From: Steroidobacteraceae bacterium
Lineage (GTDB): Bacteria; Pseudomonadota; Gammaproteobacteria; Steroidobacterales; Steroidobacteraceae
DNA length: 64,000 nucleotides
Assembly: GCA_025458865.1 (NCBI GenBank)
Contig: JALORP010000006.1
Location: forward strand, 1-64,000
Direction of reading: 5' to 3'
The position numbers and the translations under genes are program-made. Each line of letters begins with the position of its first letter. The first letter of the stretch is position 1. The notes beneath the pieces were generated by a model. That model was not told where the DNA came from. It ran no database searches and was given only the letters and a program-made list of their open reading frames with translations. This document shows positions 4,678-11,187 of this stretch, in pieces.

Positions 4678-5400
4678 TCACCGCAGCAGCATCGCCAGCG
4701 CGACGCCGGCGAGCGCCAGCGCGCCGAGCAGGCTGTCGAACCGGTCCAGTACGCCGCCCTGACCCGGCAGCAGCGCCGAATAGTCCTTGAGCCCCGCGCG
4801 GCGCTTGACCCATGAGGCGGAGAGGTCGCCGGCGAGGCCGGACAGGCCGATGGCCGCGCCCAGCGCCGCGGCCGCCAGCACGGGCAACGGGATCAGGGCA
4901 CGCGCCAGCACGGCGACCGCAGCCGCGGCGACGAGCCCGCCCAACAGTCCCTCGACCGTCTTGCCCGGGCTCAGGACCGGCGCGAGCTTCTGCCTTCCGA
5001 GCCACTGCCCCACGACCTGGCTGAAGCCATCGCAGGCCGCGGTGACAATGAAGAGGAATGCGAAGACCGCGGGGCTCAGGAGCGAGGTGGCCCAAAGGCC
5101 AAGAGCGGCGGCCGCGAGGTACACGCCCCAGACGCGCGTCGGCCGCGGCGCGGCCATGCGCCGCCACGCGCCGGCAAGCTCCCAGGCGCCGACGCCGAGG
5201 ATCACGAGCAACAGCGCCACGACCCACGCACGGCCAAGCGCCGCGGCGCCGAGCACCGCGTGCACGATGAAGCCGAACACGACGAGCTTGAGCCACCGCG
5301 CTCGCGCGACATCGGCCGCCACCCGGCGATTCGCGAGCATCATGACGATCGCGCCGAGCGCGAAGCCCGGCAGCGTCACCTGGATGATCGAGCCGATCAT
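4678..5400 (-). CDS. CdsA-like phosphatidate cytidylyltransferase (YnbB-like)
   Basis: A 240-residue polytopic membrane protein of the CDP-diglyceride synthase family, which makes CDP-diacylglycerol from CTP and phosphatidic acid. The C-terminal signature is present as SWVKRRAGLKDYSALLPGQGG followed by DRFDS (residues about 196-224). The usual His in PxHGG is Gln here, and the protein is shorter than housekeeping CdsA (about 285 residues), both fitting the COG4589/YnbB branch. The ATG overlaps the stop of the lipid kinase gene (ATGA). It is the third gene of the phospholipid operon. Activity despite the His-to-Gln change is inferred, not shown. Confidence 0.8.
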   Translation of the reverse strand: MIGSIIQVTLPGFALGAIVMMLANRRVAADVARARWLKLVVFGFIVHAVLGAAALGRAWVVALLLVILGVGAWELAGAWRRMAAPRPTRVWGVYLAAAALGLWATSLLSPAVFAFLFIVTAACDGFSQVVGQWLGRQKLAPVLSPGKTVEGLLGGLVAAAAVAVLARALIPLPVLAAAALGAAIGLSGLAGDLSASWVKRRAGLKDYSALLPGQGGVLDRFDSLLGALALAGVALAMLLR

Positions 5401-6266
5401 CCCGAACCCGCCACGCAGCGAGCCGCGCCGGCCCTGCACTCCACGTTCACGCGGACGACGCCAGGCAGCAGCTCGCCGTCGGCCATGACGGTCGTGGGTT
5501 CGCCGAATGCCAGCCCCACGCCGGCCACCTGCCGCGTGGCCAGTGGCCCGAAACGGCGACTTCCGGCGAGCACCGACAGGTTGTGCAGCAGCTGGCGCGG
5601 CCAGCCGCCCTCGAGCTCCATCACGTCGAGCAGGCCGTCGCGCACGCTCGCATCCGGGAGCCCGCGGAAATTCGACAGATACATCGTGTTGTTGACGACG
5701 ACGCCCGTCCGCCGCTGCGGCTCGCCCGAGGGCGCGAAACTCACCACGAACGATCTTGGCACCGTCAGCATGGCGGCGACCGCATAGGCGGCGCTGCCCA
5801 GCCACCCAAGCCTCGCGCGCCCCGTCGTGACGATCTCCGTGACGTAGCCCGCAGCGAGCGTGCTCGCGCACCAGCGGCGCTCCTCGCGGCCGTCGCTGAA
5901 CGTGATGCGGGCTTCGAGAAGATCGAGGGACTCGACCTGCGCGCGCCGCAACGCGTCGAGCGCCGGGCGCAGGCAGCCGACGCGGAGGTCGCGCGCGAGG
6001 CAGTTGCCGTGTCCGGCGGGGAGCACCGCCAGCACCTGCCGCCCGAGCGCCATGCCGTTGATGATCTCGCCGATCGTGCCGTCGCCGCCGACCGCGATGA
6101 GCCCGTCGAACCCGCTCGATTCGCGCGCGATGCGGGTGGCGTCGCCCGGACCGCGGGTCTCGGCCACTTGGCAGGCAAGGTCGGGCACGCGCGCGAGGGC
6201 GGCCACCGCCCGCTGTACCTGCCGCGGCCGCCCGGCGGCGGGGTTGGCGATCGCGAGCCATCTCAA
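5397..6266 (-). CDS. Diacylglycerol/sphingosine-kinase-like lipid kinase (YegS/BmrU type)
   Basis: A 289-residue cytosolic DAGK-catalytic-domain protein expected to phosphorylate diacylglycerol or a similar lipid with ATP. It has AIANPAAG at the N-terminus, the nucleotide-binding GGDGTIGEIINGMA near residue 60, PAGHGNCLARDL near 85, and a C-terminal beta-sandwich ending VNVEC. The start is a TTG at 6266 that overlaps the TGA of the upstream gene (TTGA), giving the natural first strand LRWLAIANP; longer upstream extensions are out-of-character Arg/Gly-rich sequence. It is the middle gene of the operon. Confidence 0.8.
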   Translation of the reverse strand: MRWLAIANPAAGRPRQVQRAVAALARVPDLACQVAETRGPGDATRIARESSGFDGLIAVGGDGTIGEIINGMALGRQVLAVLPAGHGNCLARDLRVGCLRPALDALRRAQVESLDLLEARITFSDGREERRWCASTLAAGYVTEIVTTGRARLGWLGSAAYAVAAMLTVPRSFVVSFAPSGEPQRRTGVVVNNTMYLSNFRGLPDASVRDGLLDVMELEGGWPRQLLHNLSVLAGSRRFGPLATRQVAGVGLAFGEPTTVMADGELLPGVVRVNVECRAGAARCVAGSG

Positions 6267-6835
6267 GCGGCACCGCCCCTGCGCTCGCGCAGCACCCACC
6301 ACAGGCCGCGCACGTCGGCGCGCCACTCGGGCAGCAGCGCCAGCAGCACCAGCTCCTCGAGGTTGCCGAGCACGCTCACGCCGACGGCGAGGTACAGCAG
6401 CCACGGCTGGAAACCGAAGACGAACAGGGTGCCGATGAAGATCCCCAGCAGGTAGCCGGCGGCCTTGGACGCATACGTGTGGAAACTGGACAGGCGGCCG
6501 TAGCGCAGCAGGGCCGCGACGTTCTCGGTGACCCAGGCGCCGATAAACACGAGTCCCAGGACAGCGTATTCCCGGACGACGTCCGGGTGGAAAACCCAGA
6601 TTCCGTAGAGCGCGGCAAAGAGCAGCAGTGTGTCTCCGATCGAGTCGAGCAGCGCGCCGAGCTTCGACTGCAGCCTGAACACGCGCGCGATCAATCCGTC
6701 GGCGATGTCGGACAGCAGCGCCAGCACCAGCAGCCAGGTGAAGGGCTGCAGCGACTCCTGCCACGCGAGCAGCGCGAGCACGGGGGCTGCCGCGATGCGG
6801 GCGGCGCTCAGCACGTTGGGCAGCTGGCGGAACAT
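6263..6835 (-). CDS. CDP-alcohol phosphatidyltransferase (PgsA/YnbA-like)
   Basis: A 190-residue integral membrane enzyme that moves a phosphatidyl group from CDP-diacylglycerol to an alcohol acceptor. The family signature D-G-x2-A-R-x8-G-x3-D-x3-D is intact in SDIADGLIARVFRLQSKLG followed by ALLDSIGD (residues about 42-70). Several hydrophobic helices follow. The acceptor (glycerol phosphate, inositol or other) cannot be told from sequence. As the first gene of a kinase/cytidylyltransferase/transferase operon it recalls E. coli ynbAB rather than housekeeping pgsA. A 13-nt palindrome (CGCGAT-T-ATCGCG, 6840-6852) lies just upstream of the ATG. Confidence 0.85.
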   Translation of the reverse strand: MFRQLPNVLSAARIAAAPVLALLAWQESLQPFTWLLVLALLSDIADGLIARVFRLQSKLGALLDSIGDTLLLFAALYGIWVFHPDVVREYAVLGLVFIGAWVTENVAALLRYGRLSSFHTYASKAAGYLLGIFIGTLFVFGFQPWLLYLAVGVSVLGNLEELVLLALLPEWRADVRGLWWVLRERRGGAA

Positions 6836-6896: not shown

Positions 6897-7502
6897 ATGG
6901 CCCGATCCGAGACACCCCAACTGCCAGACCGGGTCGCGGCTTGGTGGCTCCCAGCTGCGATCGCTGCGGCGTGCGTCGTGGTCGCGCTGACGGACAGCTG
7001 GCCGGCGCTGCGCTACGAGCGGTCGCTGCTCGGCGGCGAGCCTTGGCGCCTCCTCACCGGCCACTTCACGCACCTCGGCTGGACCCACCTCGCCCTGAAC
7101 CTCGCCGGCCTCGCCGCGGTGTGGGCCCTGCTCGGCGCCCTGCTGCGCCCGACCGCCTGGCTGGCAGTACTCCTGGGGTGCGCGCTCGGCGTGAGCTGCG
7201 GGCTCTATTTCCTCGATCCCGGTCTCGCCTGGTACGTCGGCCTGTCCGGCGTGCTGCACGGGATGTTCGTCGGCGGCGCGCTGGCCGGGCTCGGCCGGGC
7301 GCGGCTCTTCCATGCGCTGCTGCTCGTCGGCGTCGTGGCGAAGGTCGCCTACGAGCAGGTCGCCGGGGCGGACGTCGGCTCCGCCGAACTGGTCGGCGGA
7401 GCCGTCGTCGTCAACTCACACCTTTACGGAGTGCTGGCAGGCTTCGCCTGCCTGCCGATCGCGTGGCGGGGCCGGACCTCGCCGGACGCCTCCACGCCCT
7501 GA
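6897..7502 (+). CDS. rrtA: Rhombosortase (RrtA-like rhomboid intramembrane serine protease)
   Basis: A 201-residue rhomboid-family membrane protein with about six hydrophobic segments. The catalytic Ser lies in GLSG (S117) and the His in NSHLYG (H175); the conserved early His/Asn pair is in WTHLALN (H64, N68). Small size and compact rhomboid core fit rhombosortase, which cleaves C-terminal GlyGly-CTERM tails of exported proteins. The convergent neighbour ends in exactly such a tail and stops 5 bases away, which strongly supports this call. The start ATG at 6897 was preferred over the longer frame because upstream codons overlap the divergent gene. Alternative: a generic rhomboid protease. Confidence 0.8.
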   Translation: MARSETPQLPDRVAAWWLPAAIAAACVVVALTDSWPALRYERSLLGGEPWRLLTGHFTHLGWTHLALNLAGLAAVWALLGALLRPTAWLAVLLGCALGVSCGLYFLDPGLAWYVGLSGVLHGMFVGGALAGLGRARLFHALLLVGVVAKVAYEQVAGADVGSAELVGGAVVVNSHLYGVLAGFACLPIAWRGRTSPDASTP

Positions 7503-7507
7503 ACCGC

Positions 7508-8788
7508 TCAGCCGAGGCGCCGGGTCGCCACCAGGAACGGCCGTGCCGCAAACGCGGCGAGCATCGCGAGCATCGCCCACAGGCTGGTCGCACCGCCACC
7601 GCCACTGTCGCCACTGCTGGCCGAGGCCGAGCCGCTCGGGTTGGCCGAGCCGACCGGCGAGCCACCCGCGCCCGCCGGCTGCAGGTTGGCGCACTGGTCC
7701 TCCCGGTTGCCCGCAACGCGGTTGTTGCCGCCGGTCGGCGCGGGGTTGTTGCTCTTGCACTGGAGGTTGCCGCCGATGCCGTTGTCGGAGATCAGCACGC
7801 CACCGGTGTTCGTGAAGGCCTGGACGTCACCGCCCACGCCGTTGCCCTGCACCTCGAGCCGGGAACGGTTGTCCTTCAGCTGGATGTTGCCGCCGACGTC
7901 GTTGCCAGCCATCCGGCTGCGGTCGCCGACCAGGCCGTCGAGCTGGAGGTTGCCGATCACTCGGCTGGCTTCCACGTCCACGAAGTCGGCGCGCTCGGCC
8001 TGGATGTTGCCCTCGACGCGGATGCTGCGCGCCACCACCGAGCCACCCGAGTACAGCAGCACGTTGCCCTTTACACGCGTGCCGTCGAGGCGGCAGGCCG
8101 AGGTCACCAGCACGTTGCCGTCCACGGTCACGGCGCCAAGGTTGGGCGGGCAGTAGACGTCACCGGAGATCATCCCGCCGCCACCGCTGCCGCCGCCGCC
8201 ACTACCACCACCACCGCCGGACTCGGGCTGCAGGCTGGCGCACTGGTCTTCCTTGTTGCCGGAAACGCGGTTGTTGCCGCCCGCCGGAGCCGGGCTGTTG
8301 CTCTTGCACTGCAGGTTACCGTCGACGTCGTTGTCCGCAATCACGACGCCGCCGGTGTTGCTGAAGGCCTGGATGTCGCCGCCGACGTCGTTGCCGAGCA
8401 CCTCGAGCCGGGACCGATTGTCCTTCAGCTGGATGTTGCCGCCGACGCGGGTGCCGGTGACGACGCTGGTGCCGCCGCCGACGACGTCCAGCTGGATGTC
8501 ACCATTGACCGAGCTGCGATCCACGTCGACAAAGCTCGCGCGCTCCGCCTGGATGTTGCCCTCGACGCGGATGTTTCGAGCAATCAGCGAGCCGCCCGAG
8601 TAGAGCAGCACGTTGCCCTTGACCGTCGTGCCCTCGAGCTTGCAGGCGTTCCTGATGATGACGTTGCCGTCGACGGTGGTGGCGCCGAGATTTGGCGGGC
8701 AGGCCACGTCGTCCGCCGACGCGGCACCCGGAATTACGCCGAGCGCGAGACACGCGACGACGGGCAGGGACAGATGGGACAGCTTCAT
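7508..8788 (-). CDS. GlyGly-CTERM surface protein with two tandem beta-solenoid domains
   Basis: A 426-residue exported protein. Residues 1-25 form a Sec signal (LALGVIPGAASA). Two equal 158-residue domains, C30-Q187 and C213-Q370, are clear duplicates; each carries repeated GN(I/V/L)Q or GDIQ turns about every 20 residues, suggesting a right-handed beta-helix, with Cys at both ends (ACPPNLG..., ...CKSN, EDQC). A Gly/Ser linker (189-208) joins them. The tail has a Ser/Gly stretch, GGGGATSLW, a hydrophobic helix and ATRRLG: a GlyGly-CTERM sorting signal, the substrate type of rhombosortase. ATG 8788 has AAGGAG upstream; a GTG at 8818 would overlap the preceding stop. The biochemical role is unknown. 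Confidence 0.8.
   Translation of the reverse strand: MKLSHLSLPVVACLALGVIPGAASADDVACPPNLGATTVDGNVIIRNACKLEGTTVKGNVLLYSGGSLIARNIRVEGNIQAERASFVDVDRSSVNGDIQLDVVGGGTSVVTGTRVGGNIQLKDNRSRLEVLGNDVGGDIQAFSNTGGVVIADNDVDGNLQCKSNSPAPAGGNNRVSGNKEDQCASLQPESGGGGGSGGGGSGGGGMISGDVYCPPNLGAVTVDGNVLVTSACRLDGTRVKGNVLLYSGGSVVARSIRVEGNIQAERADFVDVEASRVIGNLQLDGLVGDRSRMAGNDVGGNIQLKDNRSRLEVQGNGVGGDVQAFTNTGGVLISDNGIGGNLQCKSNNPAPTGGNNRVAGNREDQCANLQPAGAGGSPVGSANPSGSASASSGDSGGGGATSLWAMLAMLAAFAARPFLVATRRLG
7679..8701. repeat. Tandem intragenic duplication (2 x 474 bp)
   Basis: The two solenoid domains occupy 8228-8701 and 7679-8152, each exactly 474 bp, offset by 549 bp. Stretches such as tggatgttgccctcgacgcg recur identically in both copies (about 7991 and 8540). 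This indicates an in-frame duplication within the gene, with the Gly-rich linker between copies. Confidence 0.85.
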
Positions 8789-8817
8789 GAGCCTCGCTCC
8801 TTGGATTATGGATGTCA

Positions 8818-10314
8818 CTATTCCAGCTCGACTTCTTCGGCCAGGACGAACGCGCCGGTCCAGCGGCCTTCGACCTCGAACCGACGACCGGCGGCGGCGG
8901 AGAAGAACTCCGCTCGTGAGATGTCGTCGAACTCGGTCTGCGAATCGGTCACGATGCGGATGCCGCCGATGCGGAACTCCGGGTCGGCGAGGTTCGCGAC
9001 CGGGCCCTCGATCTGGACCTCGCCGCCGTCGTCGTCGCGCTCCACGCGTACCGCGACGAAGCGACCCTCGGAGAGGTAGCCGGCAATCTCAACCTCGTCG
9101 CCCGCGCGCAGGTCGGCGAGCGAAAGCCGCTCGTCGTCATCGTCGTAGAAACGGGTACGCGCGGTCGTGTGAACCGTGATGCCGAGCAGCTGGAGCGTGC
9201 CGGCCGCGGCATCGACGCCATCGAGGCGGGCCTCGATGAGCGTGTCGGCCGGCGGCAGTCGCTCGACGCGGTCCGCCACGAGGCGGCCTTCGCCATCGCG
9301 CTTGCCCTGGACGTCGAGGAAGTCGTCTGCCTTGAGGCTGCCGGCGGTCGTCGCGACGTAGCGGGTCGCGGAGTTGGTCAGCACGCGCTGACCCCCCACT
9401 TCGAAGTCCGCGGCCGACCCAAGGCGCGTCACGATGCCCTCGACATTGACGTTGTCGTCGGTGGCCGCGACCACGCCGGTGGCGCGCCAGGACACGGCGG
9501 TCGCGATCAGGGTGCCAGTGCCGGATGGCGCCGCGCCTCGCACGCGGACCGTCTCGCCGTTGGCAGGACCACCGCCGGGAAAGCCGTCGAGGTTGGCCGC
9601 GGCGTAGTCGACGACGAGGCCGTTGATACTGAAGCGCCGGCCACCCGCGTCGAGCCCCGACACGACGCCCACGATCTCGGCCGTGCCGGGCGCAGGGTCG
9701 CGATCGATGCGCGAGGCCTGCAGTCGGCCGGCGGAATCGAGGAACCCGCTGATGACCAGGCCATCCCCTGCACCGATGGCGGCCAGGCCGTCCGAGGACA
9801 GGCCGTCGCCGTAGATCGTGGCCAGCGTCACCCGCACGTCCTGGCCGAGCAACCGCAGCGAGTTCGTCAATGCGTCGACCTGCTGCACCGTGCCTCGCAG
9901 CGAGCTCTCATAGTCCACGCGCTCGGCGACGCCGGTCGCGCCGCCGACCGCCACGTCGCCCAGGACGCGCAGTACGAGGCCGGGCTTGAGATCGGCTTCC
10001 CCGCCGGGTGCTCCGTTCACGGTGATGACCGCGGCGCCGGTGTCGAAGCGCACGCCGTTGACGAACACGCTCCCGAGGCGCGAGGCCGAACCCTGCGACA
10101 CCCAGCGCCCGCCGCCGTTGATGCCGCCGGTGCCTTCGCCCGGGGTCGGGGCGGTCCCACCGCCCCCGCCACCACCACCGCCACCGCCACCGCCACCGCC
10201 AGTTCCGCCGCTGCCTGGACTGCCTGCGGTCGAGCCACCGCCCCCGCCGCCACAGGCGACCGCGAGGCCCGCCACGCAGGCCACGGCGAACATCCTCAAT
10301 GCGCTGGTCTTCAT
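8818..10314 (-). CDS. DUF5666-type repeat lipoprotein
   Basis: A 498-residue exported lipoprotein. The signal ends in a lipobox (GLAVAC), followed by a poly-Gly tether (residues about 22-60) encoded by a GCC/ACC trinucleotide tract. The rest is about six repeats of roughly 65-75 residues, each with the pattern (I/L)xGxV..D...F.V.G..V....T.....LxxGDxVxVxG...GRLxAxRVE, resembling OB-like DUF5666 modules. The repeats are acidic near the C-terminus (DDDDE). The ATG overlaps the DUF6502 stop (ATGA) and the gene runs into the GlyGly-CTERM gene, so all three form one operon. No function is established; a surface scaffold or ligand binder is possible. Confidence 0.75.
   Translation of the reverse strand: MKTSALRMFAVACVAGLAVACGGGGGGSTAGSPGSGGTGGGGGGGGGGGGGGGTAPTPGEGTGGINGGGRWVSQGSASRLGSVFVNGVRFDTGAAVITVNGAPGGEADLKPGLVLRVLGDVAVGGATGVAERVDYESSLRGTVQQVDALTNSLRLLGQDVRVTLATIYGDGLSSDGLAAIGAGDGLVISGFLDSAGRLQASRIDRDPAPGTAEIVGVVSGLDAGGRRFSINGLVVDYAAANLDGFPGGGPANGETVRVRGAAPSGTGTLIATAVSWRATGVVAATDDNVNVEGIVTRLGSAADFEVGGQRVLTNSATRYVATTAGSLKADDFLDVQGKRDGEGRLVADRVERLPPADTLIEARLDGVDAAAGTLQLLGITVHTTARTRFYDDDDERLSLADLRAGDEVEIAGYLSEGRFVAVRVERDDDGGEVQIEGPVANLADPEFRIGGIRIVTDSQTEFDDISRAEFFSAAAGRRFEVEGRWTGAFVLAEEVELE
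10158..10210. repeat. GCC/ACC trinucleotide tract encoding poly-Gly
   Basis: A run of ccaccg/ccacca units encodes the uninterrupted Gly tether of the DUF5666 lipoprotein on the minus strand. Because the unit is a multiple of three, length changes would alter the linker length without shifting the frame. Confidence 0.8.
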
Positions 10315-11138
10315 CGCTGCGCTCCTCGCGCTGGTTCATCCTGAAGGTGATAGACGCCGACGCCGAGGCGCACGCGCGTGCCTGGCGCCGCTGGGTCGTT
10401 GCGCTCGTGGTTGCTGAGCCATTCGTCCACGCGCTCGAGGAGGGCCATGCCCTCGCGCTCGAGGAAATCCTGGAATTCGGGCACGTCGCGCAGATCGATG
10501 GACGCATTCTCGGCGCGACGCTCGAAGCGCAGTCGCGCCGTGGCGGGCGCGGTCAGGTCGAAGACGACCGTGTTGCCGAGGTCCTCGAGCACGCTGCCTG
10601 CACGCAGGATCTTCTCGGGATCGAGGCGCGCCTGGATGTAGCTGCGCATCTTCGCGCGCAGGCGGCCGTCGACCTCCTGCTCCACTGCGCCGACCCGACG
10701 GAACTCCCGCAACAGGGCAGACGCCGGCATGTCGCCCGCATAGCGCCGGCAGAGGTCATGGAAGGAAAGTGCCGGACCCGACTCGGGAAGCAGCTGCGGC
10801 GCACCCTGCTCGTCCAGGTAATCCGGGTCCTGGTGCCAGCCCGACAGGACGCGCTGCGCCGCGCCCATGTAGGCGGGCGCCGGCAGTTGGGTGCTCGCCA
10901 GCTGCTCCTGCTGGCGACGAACCTCGTGCCGATTGATGCCGGTCATGAGCGCGACCTTCGACGCGTTGGTCGGCCGTCCGCGGATGCCGAACTCCCGGGT
11001 CGCTACTTCGACGAAGGCCGTCTTCGACAACTCGGCGAACTCCTTCCAGTTCATCCCCGCTTTCAGCAGCAGGCGCACGATGGGCCGCAGGAGTTGCCTG
11101 CAGGCGGCGGCGACCTTTGCTTTATGCGTTGATTCCAT
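10311..11138 (-). CDS. DUF6502 family protein, probable DNA-binding regulator
   Basis: A 275-residue cytosolic protein with the DUF6502 layout. An N-terminal helical part (RQLLRPIVRLLLKAGMNWKEF) leads into a winged-helix-like stretch, GRPTNASKVALMTGINRHEVRR, around residues 53-76; the C-terminal half is helical and charged. The HTH reading is by eye. It is the first gene of the operon with the DUF5666 lipoprotein and the GlyGly-CTERM protein. Its start codon is the end of a perfect 10-bp inverted repeat that also covers the -10 element, so autoregulation by this protein is a sensible guess. No enzymatic motif was seen. Confidence 0.75.
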   Translation of the reverse strand: MESTHKAKVAAACRQLLRPIVRLLLKAGMNWKEFAELSKTAFVEVATREFGIRGRPTNASKVALMTGINRHEVRRQQEQLASTQLPAPAYMGAAQRVLSGWHQDPDYLDEQGAPQLLPESGPALSFHDLCRRYAGDMPASALLREFRRVGAVEQEVDGRLRAKMRSYIQARLDPEKILRAGSVLEDLGNTVVFDLTAPATARLRFERRAENASIDLRDVPEFQDFLEREGMALLERVDEWLSNHERNDPAAPGTRVRLGVGVYHLQDEPARGAQR

Positions 11139-11187
11139 ATTTGGTTACTTACAAACCAAATATAGGCAAGATGCCCCGCCCCGTCAA
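11137..11187 (-). promoter_or_regulatory. Sigma-70 promoter overlapped by a 10-bp palindromic operator (DUF6502 operon)
   Basis: On the minus strand TTGACG (11182-11187), a 17-base spacer and TATATT (11159-11164) form a near-consensus promoter, unusual in this GC-rich DNA. A perfect inverted repeat, ATATTTGGTT and AACCAAATAT around a 7-base centre (11137-11163), spans the -10, the expected start site and the first bases of the ATG. A bound protein would block initiation. Confidence 0.75.

Follow-up and report, generated by a model that had tools for sequence, protein, structure and literature searches.

The window, a 64,000-nucleotide stretch of DNA from a Steroidobacteraceae genome, harbours three genes on one strand, encoding a DUF6502 protein, a DUF5666 lipoprotein and a predicted exported beta-solenoid, that run towards a rhombosortase gene on the other strand. 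The features are as follows:

6897..7503, + strand: rhombosortase (rrtA/rssP type), an intramembrane rhomboid protease (TIGR03902)
7508..8788, - strand: predicted exported two-domain beta-solenoid with a GlyGly-CTERM-like tail (repeat pattern, relatives, tail profile)
7511..7627, - strand: the GlyGly-CTERM-like tail, comprising a Gly-rich motif, a hydrophobic stretch and an RR end (tail profile, TIGR03501)
8818..10314, - strand: lipoprotein with six DUF5666 (OB-fold) repeats and a poly-Gly tether (PF18914, repeat alignment, model)
10311..11138, - strand: DUF6502 protein, a putative cytoplasmic regulator (PF20112 for the family; the regulatory role is putative)

The original prediction had placed these four genes here and described them in these terms, and profile matches along with sequence anatomy confirmed all four, while the gap between the solenoid and rhombosortase genes, given as 5 bases, actually measures 4 bases between the convergent stop codons (7503/7508). 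The gene predicted to encode a rhomboid protease with GLSG and NSH motifs indeed specifies a true rhombosortase, as both motifs are present and TIGR03902 matches it with 148.5 bits against a curated cut-off of 84, the best match in its own genome. On the opposite strand, the DUF6502 stop codon overlaps the DUF5666 start codon (ATGA), and the solenoid ATG lies 29 bases past the DUF5666 stop on the same strand with an AAGGAG ahead of it. Because of this overlap and of the AAGGAG preceding an ATG only 29 bases on, the three genes likely form one operon, as had been proposed. Beside the rhombosortase gene and divergent from it lies a lipid operon (4678-6835, - strand) encoding a CDP-alcohol phosphatidyltransferase, a DAG kinase and a CTP_transf_1 cytidylyltransferase. 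We considered this operon as the source of an anchor lipid and rejected it, since relatives of the CDP-alcohol transferase and DAG kinase do not occur near other rhombosortases.

The solenoid protein carries a signal peptide followed by two halves that are 71% identical, in each of which the coils open with V.GN(I/V/L)Q at a period of about 20 residues; this repeat pattern, together with a Pfam match, below the cut-off, to an autotransporter solenoid, suggests a beta-solenoid. A Gly4Ser-like linker connects the two halves, and the C-terminus is first Gly-rich, then hydrophobic and finally ends in RR. This C-terminal stretch, SGGGGATSLWAMLAMLAAFAARPFLVATRRLG, has the tripartite layout of a Gly/Ser motif (lacking Cys), a hydrophobic stretch and a basic end, and it is conserved in the solenoid of a Woeseiaceae metagenome-assembled genome (MAG; locus L188). 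TIGR03501, run at an E-value of 10 and compared with other genomes that bear a rhombosortase, scores the tail at 12.9 bits, under its 15.5 cut-off, yet as the top match genome-wide (at the default E-value nothing was detected in the window's own genome or in the controls), and the two other matches in the genome fall on proteins without such an ending. With a profile built from solenoid tails the window tail scores 46 bits and is the only real match in its genome, a score to be read with the window tail itself being a row of that profile, of which TIGR03501 is independent. A pattern scan over 620 kb of the genome revealed no further GlyGly-CTERM-like tail. The solenoid is thus likely the sole GlyGly-CTERM-type target in the genome as judged by these searches, which used weak tail models on a genome that is 87% complete and could therefore be missing further substrates or a secretion system. 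Sequence searches against solved structures matched P0002 and P0003 through their Gly linkers alone and gave nothing for P0004.

Scanning 84,980 species genomes, we retrieved 59 relatives of the solenoid, which span cyanobacteria, actinobacteria, Chloroflexota and proteobacteria and are nearly all tail-less, most of them ending in GN.EDQCA(R)L. This tail-less family with the GN.EDQCA end is widespread in its own right, occurring in cyanobacteria, actinobacteria, Chloroflexota and betaproteobacteria (L186-L244). Its members resemble the window protein in their homologous solenoid domain (mostly 34-53% identity) and conserved GN.EDQCA end, but they mostly have one domain, lack a sorting tail and almost always come from genomes without a rhombosortase. 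We found seven genomes with a tailed solenoid (the window's, G372 with locus L188, G253, G446, G399, G402 and G479), and a rhombosortase scoring over the cut-off is encoded in 7/7 of them versus 2/47 surveyed genomes with a tail-less solenoid, both of the latter being Acinetobacter. The association yields a Fisher p of 2e-7 when relatedness is ignored, a value that overstates independence because Woeseiaceae account for five of the seven genomes with a tailed solenoid. The direction of this co-distribution is that predicted by a substrate relation, and the proposed role of the solenoid as rhombosortase target is now very probable. The solenoid is also probably the only rhombosortase substrate in its own genome: the search for other GlyGly-CTERM proteins that might be the main substrates found no other tail in the 87%-complete assembly.

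The opposite possibility, that other proteins are the main substrates of the rhombosortase and that the solenoid's tail only weakly imitates a GlyGly-CTERM, would fit the sub-cut-off TIGR03501 score and the incompleteness of the genome. It is nonetheless very improbable, given that the tail is the top GlyGly-CTERM match genome-wide and the only real match of the tail profile, and that six other solenoids bear a like tail, always with a rhombosortase in the genome.

In genomes with a single GlyGly-CTERM protein the corresponding gene is usually adjacent to the rhombosortase gene (Haft and Varghese 2011, PMC3237569). The window shares with such dedicated pairs a protease scoring over the cut-off, a single recognisable target and adjacent genes, the one recognisable tail (by weak tail models, in an 87%-complete genome) being encoded by the gene that adjoins the rhombosortase. 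It departs from them in its target, an undescribed predicted beta-solenoid encoded last in a DUF6502-DUF5666 operon, in the convergent orientation of the two genes and in the lack of any GspD match in the genome. VesB of V. cholerae has been shown to be cut by rhombosortase, conjugated to a glycerophosphoethanolamine-containing moiety and carried to the surface by type II secretion (PMC6219818); its tail and the processing of that tail are enough to associate it with the membrane but do not suffice to move it across the outer membrane (PMC13393428). In VesB with its protease RssP (PMC6219818, PMC13393428), as in the window pair, a flexible linker leads into a three-part C-terminal tail, and a rhombosortase is on hand to cleave that tail. 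However, VesB belongs to the serine proteases, is one substrate among several and requires type II secretion, whereas the window encodes a repeat protein, as one recognisable substrate, and no type II secretin was detected.

Comparison of rhombosortase neighbourhoods (loci L031-L103 and L271) revealed that in 57/72 loci of the window's family the gene is flanked on one side by divergent gspH/I/J/K-type pseudopilin genes and on the other by fabD-fabG-acpP-fabF; both flanks, type II secretion and fab, are present in 58/75 loci when three from outside the family are included. A keyword search through the 2011 paper (PMC3237569) gave no mention of this gsp-fabD linkage. The window rhombosortase has neither the type II secretion pseudopilin nor the fab flank. 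Only one other family rhombosortase locus (L071, in G025) adjoins a clear GlyGly-CTERM gene, an ORF of about 807 aa. A whole-genome search of the window's 87%-complete genome uncovered no GspD (TIGR02517) over the cut-off, the only secretin matched by the model being PilQ of a pilMNOPQ cluster (G000:C25, L317), and GspD scores 527-586 bits in all six other tailed-solenoid genomes. Should the absence be true, the solenoid would either cross the outer membrane by a different step or remain periplasmic. A rhombosortase system working without type II secretion, in which a lone lipid-anchored solenoid is regulated by and assembled with the DUF6502 protein and DUF5666 lipoprotein and either reaches the surface by another way or remains periplasmic, is quite unlikely on present data.

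The other two members of the operon belong to recognised families. The DUF6502 protein matches PF20112 with 168.7 bits and the lipoprotein matches PF18914 with 156.8 bits, both over the gathering scores; Pfam delimits five DUF5666 stretches in the latter and alignment six repeats, with CGGGGGG after the lipobox. When one repeat was modelled together with twelve repeats, the model reached a pLDDT of 93 and adopted an OB fold, with PilY2 (Z 8.9) and the chaperone CusF (Z 8.5; 1.3 A over 58 residues) as best structural matches, so that the lipoprotein may be pictured as about six OB domains strung on a tether. Both matches are periplasmic OB-fold proteins, but they share only about 12% identity with DUF5666, which occurs here as six tandem repeats on a lipoprotein, and the shared fold gives no function to DUF5666. 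Because the modelled repeat contains no methionine, no CusF-type metal site is apparent in it. In the DUF6502 protein we noted by eye an HTH-like stretch at about residues 57-82, and we infer that the protein may be a regulator; its structure model, built from a two-row alignment, was poor (pLDDT 50) and was rejected for fold search. Among 100 genomes of the window's family, DUF6502 is encoded in 66 and DUF5666 in 43, and in 14 further family loci (L167-L180) a DUF6502 gene is followed directly by a DUF5666 gene on the same strand, several of them repeating the 4-base overlap. DUF6502-DUF5666 is thus a conserved gene pair in this family and, by these overlaps, often appears translationally coupled.

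The original prediction had gone further and regarded the locus as one regulated surface system. A protease-substrate pair and a conserved DUF pair were supported, but a conserved linkage between them was not: solenoid, DUF5666 and DUF6502 genes are absent within about 8 kb (less at contig ends) of all 72 other family rhombosortase loci, and neither a solenoid nor a rhombosortase occurs in the examined stretches around the 14 other DUF6502-DUF5666 loci. We therefore rejected rhombosortase-DUF6502 and rhombosortase-DUF5666 as conserved pairs (0/72 loci). Conserved linkage in other genomes is thereby mostly refuted for the four-gene unit (0/72 and 0/14), though not fully, as the three-gene operon recurs once, in the Woeseiaceae MAG at L188, where a DUF6502 gene (43% identity) and a DUF5666 gene (36%) precede a tailed solenoid gene. 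The rhombosortase of this MAG is encoded on another contig, between type II secretion and fab genes, and no rhombosortase lies near the other tailed solenoids either. In the DUF6502 tree the window protein groups with those of L172, L169 and L174 (99/99) and the L188 protein with those of L178 and L179 (100/100), all five from loci without a solenoid. As window and L188 sit on separate branches, the triple either arose on two occasions or is ancient and has been lost many times. The two operon cases hint at a functional link without establishing one, and the link between the DUF pair and the protease-target pair is rare and no more than suggestive.

An integrated four-gene surface system, in which DUF6502 regulates, the lipoprotein and the processed solenoid assemble and the rhombosortase is built in, is a possible reading to which linkage gives no support. 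The tight gene packing would agree with it, as would L188, where a Woeseiaceae MAG whose DUF6502 falls on a separate branch has these three genes in identical order, a recurrence that would fit either repeated functional assembly or an old unit lost elsewhere. The unlinked rhombosortase in the L188 genome, the absence of linkage at 72 rhombosortase and 14 DUF-pair loci, and five further tailed solenoids without DUF neighbours (two of those contigs being short) make it unlikely, however. It is likewise improbable that the genes are chance neighbours, a solenoid-rhombosortase cassette having landed behind a native DUF6502-DUF5666 pair without shared regulation or function. Such an insertion could explain why the window DUF6502 groups with solenoid-less family members and why none of the 99 other family genomes sampled has the solenoid, and the window rhombosortase does group weakly in its tree with the Woeseiaceae and G253 sequences and not with that of its congener. 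Yet the solenoid gene begins 29 bases past DUF5666, shares its strand and has a ribosome site of its own, the same gene order exists in L188, and a clade of the window rhombosortase with the congener's is not rejected (p-AU 0.156). With the grouping weakly supported and the congener clade standing, we also discarded lateral transfer of the rhombosortase from Woeseiaceae.

We favour the interpretation, at a probability of roughly 0.65, that the locus consists of two adjacent modules, a dedicated rhombosortase pair and a coupled DUF6502-DUF5666 pair to which the solenoid gene has been added as third gene. In the first module, the signal peptide would export the solenoid and the GlyGly-CTERM-like tail would hold it in the inner membrane, where, by analogy with V. 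cholerae, the convergently encoded rhombosortase may cut the tail and leave the solenoid lipid-anchored at its new C-terminal glycine, as with VesB. The second module would comprise the likely regulator DUF6502 and the lipoprotein with predicted OB-fold repeats, produced in a coupled fashion. The solenoid gene presumably became the third gene behind this pair, its expression then probably being tied to the pair, and the rhombosortase would be transcribed separately from the other strand. That DUF6502 regulates the operon and that the two exported proteins act jointly we purely infer. The protease-target pair is of a known kind and its substrate family is new, naming a new family of rhombosortase substrates; homologous solenoids that carry a tail where the protease is present offer a natural test of the relation, and the locus provides a simple one-protease, one-substrate arrangement for rhombosortase study, possibly apart from type II secretion.

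The searched literature contained no mention of DUF6502 and listed DUF5666 in gene or domain tables only, and as far as it shows the DUF6502-DUF5666 pair is conserved but undescribed. Two families of unknown function are thus tied into a coupled gene pair, and DUF5666 gains a predicted OB fold. Genes of a second DUF6502 class (L181-L184) are found two or three to a cluster next to pilQ-aroK-aroB-dgt-like genes, and these clusters also include a secreted protein with GIxGxG or IQGTG repeats.
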